64,000 bases of DNA from Streptomyces sp. SID8374. Its GTDB lineage: Bacteria; Actinomycetota; Actinomycetes; Streptomycetales; Streptomycetaceae. The notes under the pieces are model-generated. The model worked only from the letters and a program-made list of their open reading frames with translations, made no database searches and was not told where the DNA came from. This document shows positions 12,008 through 14,966 of this stretch, piece after piece (within the stretch, counting starts at the first letter, position 1; every line of letters starts with the position of its first letter). The stretch is taken from positions 1,674,001 through 1,738,000 of the forward strand of contig NZ_WWGH01000001.1 in assembly GCF_009865135.1 (NCBI RefSeq), written 5' to 3'. A program made the position numbers and the translations under genes.

Positions 12008-12251
12008 GGGGGTCAGTGTGCCCGGTGCGGGGGCCGGAGTGCCTGGTGCCGGGGGCGAGTGCCGGGTGTGGGGGTGCCCGGACCCAGGGCGGCGGAATGT
12101 GGTGGCGCGGGGCGGGCGTGGGCCGTTACGTTTTCGGGGCCGGCCGCGGGACTTCGGCTGCGACTTCCGAGACTTGCCTGTGAAGCGATGATTTCGTTGT
12201 TCGCGCCTCCATTCCCCGGCCGGCATCCGCAGTCCTCACCGGGGGAAGTCC
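12008..12251. other. Divergent intergenic region
   Basis: About 240 bases between the oxidoreductase and the vWA operon. The first 100 bases are G-rich and degenerate (repeats of GTGCCGG/GGGG). The part nearer the vWA gene is less GC-rich (ATGATTTCGTTG at ~12188) and should hold its promoter. GGGGGAAG precedes the ATG at 12252. Confidence 0.4.
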
Positions 12252-13772
12252 ATGAACACGCCGCCCGAGCCCCTTGCCGATCTCCGCGAGACCCTTGCCG
12301 ATCTCGTCGCCGCCGAAGACGTCCTGCTCTTCGCGAATGCGGCGATCACCGCGACCGGACAGCGCGAGTTCCGTTCGGGCGCCCTCGATCAGCAACTCTC
12401 GCTGGACTTCCTGCATACGTACGTCCGGGTCAATTACCGCCGTGTGTACGCCGCTTCGCTGGCCCTCGACATCAACGACCACAACGCCGCCCGTATCGTG
12501 CTCGGCCTCCTGGAGACCGCCGGTGAGGCGAGCGCCGATGAGCGGCGCACCGAGGGCCGGCTCATCGCCGCCCGGCTGGCGCTGCTGCCTCCGCAGCGGG
12601 TCTACCGGCTCTTCGGCGAGGTGCGCCGGGCCGGGATCAACAACCGGCGTACCCGGGCGATCATGCGGAACTGGCTGGCGGCCCGGCCGGACCTGGGGCA
12701 CGACGCGGTGAAGTACCGCAGCGGGGTGAAGACGGCCGCCCGGCACATCCATCTGCGCTGCGCCGAAGGGGCCGGGGCGGAGGTCGGGGCGTTCCTGTTC
12801 CGGCCGGGGAAGCTGCCGCGGTACGAGCACCCGCTGCTGGACGCGTGGCGGCGCGCGCACTACGAGCAGGGGGCCGTGGCCGAGCTGCCGTTCACCGTGG
12901 CGGAGGGGTTCGCGGCCCGGCACGGGATGAAGCGCGAGGCGTTCCTGAAGCGGGCCGCGCCCCGGATGACCCGGCTGGAGCGGCTGCGGACCCTGGAGCA
13001 GCGGGCGGTGGGCGACCGCCGACCGGACGTCGATCTGACCGTGATGCCGCTGACCCGGCTGGCCCTGTACGTCCTCGCGCTCCCCTTCGAGGAACGGGTC
13101 GCCCGCCGTACCGAGCTGACCGGTGCCCTGCGCACCGCCGCCCGCCGGGCCGCGGGCCGGCACGCCGGGAGCTGGGGCCGGGTGCACGCGGTGCTGGACG
13201 ACAGCTTCTCCTCGTCCGGGTCGGGGCAGAAGCGGCGCCGGCCGCTCGCCGTGGCCCTGGCCTGCCATCACCTGCTGGAGGTGCTCGCCGCGCCGGGCGC
13301 GTACCGGGGGCTGTGGACCTCGGGCCGGGGCGATGCCCTGCTCGTACGTCCGTGGGGGCCGACCCCGCTGGGGATGCGGGTCCTGGACGCGCTGGAGCCC
13401 GGGCAGGGTGGTGCGGCCCCGGACCGGCTGGTGATCGTTTCGGACGGCTGGGACAACGCCCCGGCGGGGCTGGCGGGCGAGGTGCTGCGGGTGTGGCGCT
13501 CGCGGCTGGATCCGGGGCGGCGGACGGCGGTGGTGCACGTCAACCCCGTATACGACGCGGGCGGTTTCGATGTGCGGCGGCTCGCGGCGGGGGTTCCGAC
13601 GGCCGGGATCCGGGACGCGGAGGATCTGCCCGCGCTGGTGGAGATCGCCCGGTTCGCGGAAGGCCGGACCGGGGCGGCGGAGCTGCACGCGTATCTGGAC
13701 CGGCGCGTGGCCCTCTTCCTGGGAGAGGGCCACCGACAGGAAAAGCAGGAAGAGGAGGAGGCAGTCTCGTGA
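12252..13772 (+). CDS. vWA-domain protein with helical N-terminus (TROVE-like layout)
   Basis: A 506-aa soluble protein. Residues 1-~290 are helical and contain LPPQRVYRLFGEVRRAGINN, an Arg-rich NNRRTRAIMRNWLAARPDL and DAVKYRSGVKTAARHIHL. The C-terminal half is a von Willebrand A-like domain: the MIDAS motif DxSxS appears as LDDSFSSSGSG (residue ~316) and the later metal-site strand as LVIVSDGWDN (~396). Helical repeats followed by vWA is the arrangement of Ro60/TROVE proteins, which bind Y RNA, but the sequence is not close enough for me to assign that family. It overlaps the next gene by 4 bases (GTGA), so the two act together. Function unknown; an RNA-handling or stress/conflict role is a hypothesis. 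Confidence 0.75.
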   Translation: MNTPPEPLADLRETLADLVAAEDVLLFANAAITATGQREFRSGALDQQLSLDFLHTYVRVNYRRVYAASLALDINDHNAARIVLGLLETAGEASADERRTEGRLIAARLALLPPQRVYRLFGEVRRAGINNRRTRAIMRNWLAARPDLGHDAVKYRSGVKTAARHIHLRCAEGAGAEVGAFLFRPGKLPRYEHPLLDAWRRAHYEQGAVAELPFTVAEGFAARHGMKREAFLKRAAPRMTRLERLRTLEQRAVGDRRPDVDLTVMPLTRLALYVLALPFEERVARRTELTGALRTAARRAAGRHAGSWGRVHAVLDDSFSSSGSGQKRRRPLAVALACHHLLEVLAAPGAYRGLWTSGRGDALLVRPWGPTPLGMRVLDALEPGQGGAAPDRLVIVSDGWDNAPAGLAGEVLRVWRSRLDPGRRTAVVHVNPVYDAGGFDVRRLAAGVPTAGIRDAEDLPALVEIARFAEGRTGAAELHAYLDRRVALFLGEGHRQEKQEEEEAVS

Positions 13773-14908
13773 ACCGGCTGGAGCTGACCGGGCTCACCAC
13801 CCGGCCCTCGCAGGTGTGGGGCGGCGTCCGGCTCGTACCGCTGGTGCGTGAGGCCCCGGTGGACGGGCTCCGGCTGCACCGGGAGGTGTACGAGCGGCTC
13901 GGGGCGGGGGCCGTCGAGGTCGGGCCCCGTACGCGGTACGTCTCCTACATCCCGCACGGGCTGGTCGCCGACTGGTCCGGGGACGGGGAGGGCGCCGAAG
14001 GGCAGGGCGGGCAGTCGGCCGCGTACGGCACCCAGTTCGGCGGGCCGGACGCGCCCCGTACCCTTCGGCTGCCGCGCCCGCCCCTCCACCGCATGGCCAA
14101 GCGCCGCCCCGGCGACCGGCTCCGGTTCCTGCCGCTCCACCTGGCTCTGGAGGGCTACCTCGCACTGCACTTCGGCGGACCGTCGACCGCCTGGGAGGAG
14201 TGGTCGCGGCGGGCGCTGCGCGACGGGCTGTCGCCGCGCGCGGAGGACGCGTACCTCGGGTGGTCGGTGCGGGGGCTCGGGGACGCGCTGCGGATCTTCG
14301 AGATCCACCCGGACCAGTGCGGGGTGATGGTGTACGTCGCCGACGCGCTCGCCGCCGCCTTCGTGGTGCCGCACCCGGAGGACTACCGGCTGCTGCACGC
14401 CTCGCTGGTGGAGGACCTGTACGGGGAACTGGTGCACCAGTACGCGCTGTACGGGGCCCCGGTCGCGGAGTTCGGGGCACGCCTCGGGGACGGGGCGCAC
14501 ATCCGTACGCTCGCCGATCTCCGGGCGGCGGCGCGCGGGCAGGAGCGGGCGTGGGAGGAGGCGCACGAGGCGCTGTTCGCGCGGGAGCTGCTGGACTCCT
14601 CGTACGGGTTCGACCGGGTGTACCGGATGGGGTCGTTCACGCTGTGGCGGTTCCTGCCGCCGTTCGTCCGGGACGGCGGCGGTCAGCACATCGGGGAGAC
14701 GATCACCGACCACAAGGGACAGGTCGCCTACCTCAAGACGTTCCGGCTCTCCGACGCCCAGATCCGGCGCGGCTATCTGCTGCACGTCCTCGCGGGCGCG
14801 GAGTGGGAGCTGTCCCGGGCGGCCGCGACGCTGGGGTCAAGCCGGGAGGAGCTGGTGCGGCGGATCCGCGCCGCCGGGTTCTCGGAGCTCCTCAAGGGCA
14901 ACGTATGA
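13769..14908 (+). CDS. ARPP-like protein with C-terminal Fis-type HTH
   Basis: A 379-aa protein starting at a GTG inside the stop of the vWA gene, so translation is coupled. The N-terminus (LTTRPSQVWGGVRLVPLVRE, then RYVSYIPHGLVADW) resembles ARPP-type domains reported in predicted bacterial conflict operons; this is a tentative match from memory. The middle contains GYLALHFGGPSTAWEEWSRR and a repeated use of aromatic and acidic residues. The last ~45 residues (LLHVLAGAEWELSRAAATLG, then SSREELVRRIRAAGFSELLK) fit a Fis/HTH_8 DNA-binding helix-turn-helix. It could sense something through the N-terminal domain and bind DNA, or load the vWA partner. It ends in a 30-bp direct repeat. Confidence 0.7.
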   Translation: MNRLELTGLTTRPSQVWGGVRLVPLVREAPVDGLRLHREVYERLGAGAVEVGPRTRYVSYIPHGLVADWSGDGEGAEGQGGQSAAYGTQFGGPDAPRTLRLPRPPLHRMAKRRPGDRLRFLPLHLALEGYLALHFGGPSTAWEEWSRRALRDGLSPRAEDAYLGWSVRGLGDALRIFEIHPDQCGVMVYVADALAAAFVVPHPEDYRLLHASLVEDLYGELVHQYALYGAPVAEFGARLGDGAHIRTLADLRAAARGQERAWEEAHEALFARELLDSSYGFDRVYRMGSFTLWRFLPPFVRDGGGQHIGETITDHKGQVAYLKTFRLSDAQIRRGYLLHVLAGAEWELSRAAATLGSSREELVRRIRAAGFSELLKGNV

Positions 14909-14966
14909 CGCGTACCTACAGGGTGAACCTCTGCGGGACGCGTACCTACAGTGCAAACCCTTGCGG
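14907..14966. repeat. 30-bp direct repeat, two copies
   Basis: Two adjacent 30-bp units (14907-14936 and 14937-14966) share GACGCGTACCTACAG and CTGCGG/TTGCGG ends, differing in the middle. The first unit overlaps the stop codon of the Fis-type gene. They lie just before the glnII promoter. Confidence 0.85.

Follow-up and report, generated by a model that had tools for sequence, protein, structure and literature searches.

What do two overlapping genes of Streptomyces sp. SID8374, one for a vWA protein and the other for a protein with a Fis-like C-terminus, encode? The pair lies in a 64,000-nt stretch (GCF_009865135.1, NZ_WWGH01000001.1, 1,674,001–1,738,000, forward strand; hereafter the window, numbered from its first base) of a 7.78-Mb genome in four contigs, for which gene 2 indicates Streptomyces such as S. 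cyaneofuscatus as the nearest named relatives. The original prediction had read the two genes as a sensor-effector pair and a candidate conflict system. Its two-gene layout held: both frames are real, lie where they were placed, and overlap in GTGA. It overlooked the main component of the locus, a structured RNA upstream of the first gene (gene 1). We consider it probable that the locus is a three-part unit consisting of an RNA of about 86 nt, a protein with a predicted Ro60/TROVE fold (gene 1), and an ARPP-2 protein whose Fis-like tail is predicted to bind DNA (gene 2), and that the RNA is a Y-RNA-type partner of the gene 1 product; here, we infer RNA binding, complex formation, and all functions of the unit. 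The coordinates of the features are collected in Table 1.

A conserved RNA structure upstream of gene 1

Relatives of gene 2 were taken from the best 80 of 101 genome places, and a gene 1 match adjoined gene 2 in all 80 of these loci. A pattern search detected an RNA element of 83–87 nt in 77 of 81 loci, and a covariance model, R1 (66 sequences, 26 pairs, built without Nostoc), added those of loci L027 and L070; an insertion interrupts the element in L034 and L050. The RNA consists of a 12-bp closing helix with a bulged C (12147 in the window), an internal loop, a second helix, a weak third helix, and an apical hairpin. In the alignment, the closing helix spans columns 4–16 and 81–92; its 5' strand carries a single unpaired pyrimidine at column 12 (C, or U in a few rows), around which the helix is 100% paired, and columns 81–92 are paired throughout without an unpaired column. 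The element therefore has the lower helix with a single bulged C that marks Y RNAs of the vertebrate type. In the passages of PMC4726728 that treat vertebrate Y RNA, the site for Ro60 is likewise a short helix in which one cytidine is bulged. The closed-end hairpin, the internal loop, and the upper stem, together with the single bulged pyrimidine (mostly C) in the lower helix, are shared with Y RNAs of vertebrates and nematodes and with stem-bulge RNAs.

The structure is conserved and covaries. In an alignment of 66 of the 77 RNAs, from which 11 near-duplicates had been dropped, 99.0% of the cells were paired and seven pairs changed on both sides, and none of 500 shuffles reached any of five measures. 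In a second alignment of 33 sequences including Nostoc, 98.0% of the cells were paired, 10 of the 26 pairs changed on both sides, and four of the five measures were reached by no shuffle among 500. When the structures were slid by 1–3 columns, only 39–51% of the cells paired. Folded alone, the window RNA was less striking (z −2.24), and two Nostoc RNAs gave z −4.2. Coding overlap was rejected as a cause of this conservation, because the length of the RNA varies within 83–87 nt and the RNA persists where the divergent Gfo/Idh gene is missing.

No Rfam family matched at the window RNA or in the loci of eight relatives, and the covariance model of YrlA (RF02553) found no match in the window or in eight relatives' loci. 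ARAGORN detected no tRNA-like module in the RNA, nor did it in a YrlA control. A misread YrlA was also rejected, since the same Rfam search does find YrlA beside the TROVE gene of this genome (see below).

The RNA is preceded by a predicted −10 element. A TAnnnT hexamer, chosen as the best within a 16-nt window, lies 5–9 nt before the helix in all 60 non-redundant loci (of 77) and exactly 6 nt before it in 50 of them, with a G two bases before the hexamer in 98%. Transcription would therefore start approximately where the closing helix begins. A scan with a generic sigma-70 consensus detected no promoter, and no terminator was found.

Table 1. Positions of the RNA, the genes, their domains, and the TROVE locus of the same genome
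Feature	Position	Strand	Remarks
Predicted −10 element TACGTT	12127..12132	+	TAnnnT before RNA helix in 60/60 loci
Structured non-coding RNA, Y-RNA-like, 86 nt	12139..12224	+	Model R1, E 7.7e-20; copy within R1's training set
Gene 1, predicted Ro60/TROVE-like RNA-binding protein, 506 aa	12252..13772	+	
Gene 1 helical (TROVE/HEAT-like) part, residues 8–305	12273..13166	+	Secondary structure of model
Gene 1 vWA domain, metal motif intact, residues 308–470	13173..13661	+	
Gene 2, ARPP-2 protein with Fis-like C-terminus, 379 aa	13769..14908	+	
Gene 2 ARPP-2 domain (PF22549), residues 4–288	13778..14632	+	E 5.5e-122; profile link to ARPP-1
Gene 2 Fis-like helix-turn-helix, residues 327–372	14747..14884	+	Region conserved in Nostoc relatives
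TROVE gene	G000:C1 ~1341286 (L092:925-2511)	−	YrlA directly upstream, L092:2607-2708

Gene 1 is predicted to adopt the Ro60 fold

The proposal that gene 1 has the layout of Ro60/TROVE proteins was borne out by its structure model, for which a structural search returned the TROVE + vWA fold. All eight Foldseek matches at E ≤ 0.001 were Ro60, Rsr, or TROVE proteins, and Ro60 structures aligned with the model over 390–404 residues, including the helical and vWA parts together. The predicted fold is thus the helical ring plus vWA domain of Ro60, which in humans is an autoantigen. The first of the two outcomes that would have refuted the original prediction, a structural search showing no vWA/TROVE fold, did not occur. 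As the original prediction also claimed, the vWA metal motif is intact, and DxSxS-T-D was found across the aligned relatives (32-row and 13-row alignments), with T371 present in at least 90%, although not all, of them.

At the sequence level, none of the 32 gene 1 rows matched the Pfam TROVE profile (PF05731) at E ≤ 1, BLASTP revealed no similarity to bacterial Ro60 (Rsr), and searches of the PDB with single proteins or profiles gave no useful match. Three cyanobacterial relatives of gene 1 were scanned, of which one matched vWA_Ro60 weakly (E 0.044). Because the TROVE profile was not matched, we do not file gene 1 as a TROVE member; it is predicted to work like one.

Gene 2 combines an ARPP-2 domain with a Fis-like tail

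The ARPP-like nature of the partner was confirmed by profile: gene 2 is an ARPP-2 protein, scoring 406.6 bits against PF22549 (cut-off 27), and its Nostoc relative scored 384.8 bits. For the C-terminus, which had been described as a Fis-type helix-turn-helix, a Fis-like tail is supported, but the Fis-type profile PF02954 gave no match above its cut-off. A search of gene 2 against the PDB returned only NtrC-type tails at E 0.31–0.37 and one chance row, and its structure model had a pLDDT of 52.7. A role of ARPP on ribose moieties is proposed in the sections of PMC9503650 that concern it. Cysteine chemistry of the ARPP type was rejected for ARPP-2, as cysteine 184 (beside Q183) is V in Nostoc.

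The RNA and the two genes recur together in two phyla

Within a set of 396 genomes from the phylum, the RNA matched strongly only in that of the window (G000) and in G107, and the same two have a full gene 1 and a full-length ARPP-2 gene. Four other genomes of this set matched ARPP-2 below the cut-off, and two of these proteins, when scanned, were ARPP-1; four further RNA matches (E 0.04–0.94) and a weak match of gene 1 (G296, E 2.9e-4) resemble chance hits. Of 295 Streptomyces genomes, 46 contain gene 1, 45 the RNA, and 43 both, and in each of these 43 gene 1 shares its contig and strand with the RNA, which immediately precedes it. When 20 upstream stretches were inspected, the RNA was present in 16 of 16 with an intact gene 1 and also in the fragment G711. 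A degraded ARPP-2 remnant was seen in one of the 396 genomes (L084; G369) that has neither gene 1 nor the RNA.

The original prediction would have failed if homologs of the two genes never occurred together outside close relatives; it survived this test, because the pair is found on Nostoc plasmids, in another phylum. Plasmid searches with gene 1 or gene 2 retrieved the same three records, all from Nostoc and two of them typed as conjugative, with identities of 45–46% for gene 1 and 42% for gene 2. On each of these plasmids, R1 located the RNA immediately before gene 1 (E 2.4e-11 to 7e-11). Comparison of the Nostoc outer helix (ACTGTTTG versus GCCGGCCG) showed five changed pairs, of which four are compensated and one became U-G, and the bulged C is kept. 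On two of the three plasmids (L093 and L095, 5204–5943), XisH/XisI genes are located between gene 1 and gene 2. A phage-borne cargo was rejected, as neither gene had a relative in the IMG/VR contigs (two scans), and a search of phage records, made for gene 2 only, found no relative of it.

A second Ro60-type locus in the same genome

The genome also contains a TROVE gene that is recognizable by sequence (PF05731, E 2.8e-11 to 3.4e-11), and the RNA beside it matched YrlA (RF02553, 55 bits, E 5.6e-11). When 11 other actinobacterial TROVE loci were scanned, 8 gave a YrlA match (30–56 bits at E ≤ 0.01), and the best match of R1 in 25 actinobacterial TROVE loci had an E of 0.031. Since YrlA lies at the TROVE gene and the window RNA has no Rfam match, two Ro60-type loci with different RNAs coexist in this genome.

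Directly upstream of another actinobacterial TROVE gene (L102:2123-2186, minus strand), RF01656 matched with E 5.5e-4 and 36.2 bits, below its gathering score of 38. We take this nematode sRNA family to be the stem-bulge RNAs, relatives of Y RNA, and the L102 RNA is possibly a third kind of Y-RNA-like partner.

A partner RNA or an mRNA leader?

The principal alternative is that the RNA is a cis-acting leader of the mRNA, bound by the gene 1 or gene 2 product for autoregulation or by a ligand, rather than a trans-acting partner. The placement of the RNA suits such a leader. It occurs in cis, with one match per genome in all 45 Streptomyces genomes having it; it ends 19–61 nt before the start codon of gene 1 in 61 of the 77 loci; no terminator was detected between the two; and apart from its predicted promoter no other candidate was seen that could serve the operon. 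The RNA of the window also contains CCCCGG, whose complement CCGGGG adjoins the start codon (12214–12245), which would permit an alternative pairing. However, many relatives lack this second stretch, and the fold of the element is retained in a longer transcript. The gap length also varies, the remaining values ranging from −45 to 311, of which seven negatives among the 77 are due to start codons set too far upstream. In addition, the helix with its single bulge resembles Y RNA, YrlA occupies an equivalent place at the TROVE gene of the same genome, and 2 of the 45 genomes have the RNA without gene 1. Taking these points together, we regard a leader as unlikely, though as the most serious competitor of a Y-RNA-type partner.

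A conflict system, either against ADP-ribosylation or of another ARPP type with the vWA protein as a peptide-binding chaperone, appears improbable. Its basis is the ARPP family, which according to the relevant parts of PMC9503650 is named for its gene association with ADP-ribosylglycohydrolase (ARG) and a rhodanese-phosphatase, with vWA proteins in those neighborhoods. The patchy presence of the unit (46 of 295 Streptomyces genomes) and its occurrence on plasmids would agree with this view, as would the presence, on one of the three Nostoc plasmids, of a gene of the thermonuclease family that adjoins gene 2 in opposite orientation (L094:7276-7965, minus). On the other hand, no such partner genes are neighbors in the window. 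The seven neighbors scanned were all ordinary (CMD, GntR-aminotransferase, Gfo/Idh, glutamine synthetase, response-regulator-type, MMPL, and ArsC); no ADP-ribosylglycohydrolase or phosphatase neighbor was present in the window, those of the relatives having been clustered, not annotated; clustering of scripted gene calls, not all annotated, revealed no constant third gene around the non-Streptomyces loci; and PADLOC gave no match among the four proteins scanned. Moreover, gene 1 is predicted to be Ro60-like over its whole length and the conserved companion is an RNA. The claimed sensor-effector or conflict function was thus not supported, and a conflict system with nuclease or protease partners was rejected within the scopes of the neighbor scan, clustering, and PADLOC. 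On the suggested check for repeated pairing with RtcB, nucleases, or proteases, the clustering around the non-Streptomyces loci gave no constant neighbor (the genome was not searched for RtcB or ADP-ribosylglycohydrolase).

Finally, the element could be a DNA operator for the Fis-like gene 2 protein, as GCCGGCC...GGCCGGC is an inverted repeat in DNA too, but this is the least credible explanation, because pairs are kept through G-U (for example, 17 of 66 at columns 25/72; U-G in three Nostoc rows), the bulge and loops are strand-specific (R1 gave 95–110 bits on the sense strand and ≤ 28 on the other), the internal helices covary, and the position of the −10 element suits a transcript that begins approximately where the element does.

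We now return to the Y-RNA-type partner, against which the following points weigh. Rows were left out of the 33-sequence RNA alignment and of the protein alignments, which included 32 and 31 of 81 proteins. In the 33-sequence test, the measure of further pair types was reached by 4 of 500 shuffles, and helix 3 was weak, being 92.4% paired with no two-sided change. The shuffle counts are not probabilities for related sequences, and the slid controls favor a structure derived from the same sequences. For gene 1, hhalign gave sequence-level support for the vWA part only. Since gene 2 served to fetch the 80 loci, the frequency of gene 1 without gene 2 cannot be read from them, and at least five of the 20 upstream stretches, as well as G107, apparently overlap this set, so that not all are new genomes. 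The RNA stands without a gene 1 match in G664 (C1:6577005-6577094) and G806 (C11:11653-11744), and gene 1 fragments without the RNA at E ≤ 0.001 were found in G578, G609, and G662, of which G578 has a weak RNA match (E 0.0038) inside the fragment. All YrlA control matches also scored below the Rfam gathering score of 69 bits.

Comparison with known systems and a possible mechanism

The unit resembles bacterial Ro60 (Rsr)/YrlA (PF05731 and RF02553) in its predicted TROVE-like helical part plus vWA domain and in the small structured RNA immediately upstream. It differs in that gene 1 has no Pfam TROVE or BLASTP match, the RNA has no YrlA match, an ARPP-2/Fis partner is present, and neither RtcB nor RtcR is among the annotated neighbors in the window. 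A Ro60-type protein and an RNA are likewise shared with the rsr-yrlBA-rtcBA operons with RtcR, and Fis-like tails also occur in sigma-54 activators (NtrC-type), whereas no ligase, cyclase, or AAA+ activator was found among the annotated neighbors. As in the ARPP/ARG-centered systems (Viruses 2022, 14:1977), where vWA proteins also occur, gene 2 is an ARPP-2 protein that is profile-related to ARPP-1; unlike in those systems, the window's neighbors include no ADP-ribosylglycohydrolase or phosphatase. Other partners of ARPP named in the relevant sections of PMC9503650 are HIRAN, WYL, and deacetylase, with no Ro60-like protein or RNA in those sections.

The constancy of a structured RNA as companion points to an RNA-protein particle. 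After transcription from the predicted start, the RNA may be either released from the operon transcript or kept at its head. By analogy to Ro60, the lower helix with its bulge would be held by the outer face of the helical ring of gene 1, and the RNA would control, as a Y RNA does on Ro60, the access of the ring to RNAs that are misfolded or damaged. The metal-binding vWA domain may recruit the gene 2 product, as the recurrent pairing and the overlapping reading frames suggest. ARPP-2 could then read a nucleotide- or ribose-type signal and, as suggested by its Fis-like tail, feed back on the operon promoter; this is the least certain step.

The predicted structure and the RNA place the unit beside the Ro60/Y RNA particles, as a variant not yet described. 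Literature searches listed no paper that describes it; "undescribed" rests on these searches together with Rfam and Pfam, and earlier work may hold the RNA or the pair. We lean, with some reserve, toward a broader view in which the unit represents a second class of bacterial Ro60-RNA particle, comprising a fast-diverged Ro60 that escapes the TROVE profile, a Y-RNA-type family of its own at the start of the operon transcript, and a dedicated ARPP-2/Fis partner, which is inherited as a unit on Actinomycetota chromosomes and Cyanobacteriota conjugative plasmids and exists alongside Ro60/YrlA in the same cell. If this holds, the ARPP-2/Fis partner would link the particle to transcription. The role of bacterial Ro60 particles is still largely open, and a compact unit with a defined RNA, a Ro60-like protein, and a third component in tractable Streptomyces or Anabaena would make it directly testable. 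Among laboratory strains, Streptomyces venezuelae has a listed homolog of ARPP-2 and Trichormus/Anabaena variabilis one of gene 1. The unit would further connect ARPP-2, a so far unexplained family, with RNA biology, and its RNA would form a new family with the single bulge of vertebrate Y RNA in its closing helix.

Variation among the loci

A glutamine synthetase gene adjoins the unit in most Streptomyces loci, and the flanks differ in Kitasatospora, Kibdelosporangium, Actinoallomurus, Saccharothrix, Nocardia, Hamadaea, and Virgisporangium. Two loci may carry wrong labels: L045, titled Microtetraspora glauca, has the gene order of the Streptomyces loci, and L067, titled Rhodococcus rhodnii, has that of Kibdelosporangium aridum. 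Damaged copies of gene 1 were seen in 4 of the 80 loci, by deletion or insertion in L027, L034, and L050 and by a frame change in L030. In the Streptomyces loci L034 and L050, the insertion lies at one identical point inside the RNA (from about 6391 and 6689 onward, respectively), and the 3' half of the RNA and gene 1 up to about residue 402 are lost; gene 2 retains its complete frame in L050, and in L034 its frame is interrupted. In the window, two copies of GACGCGTACCTACAG, 30 nt apart, lie at 14907–14951 between gene 2 and the glutamine synthetase gene.

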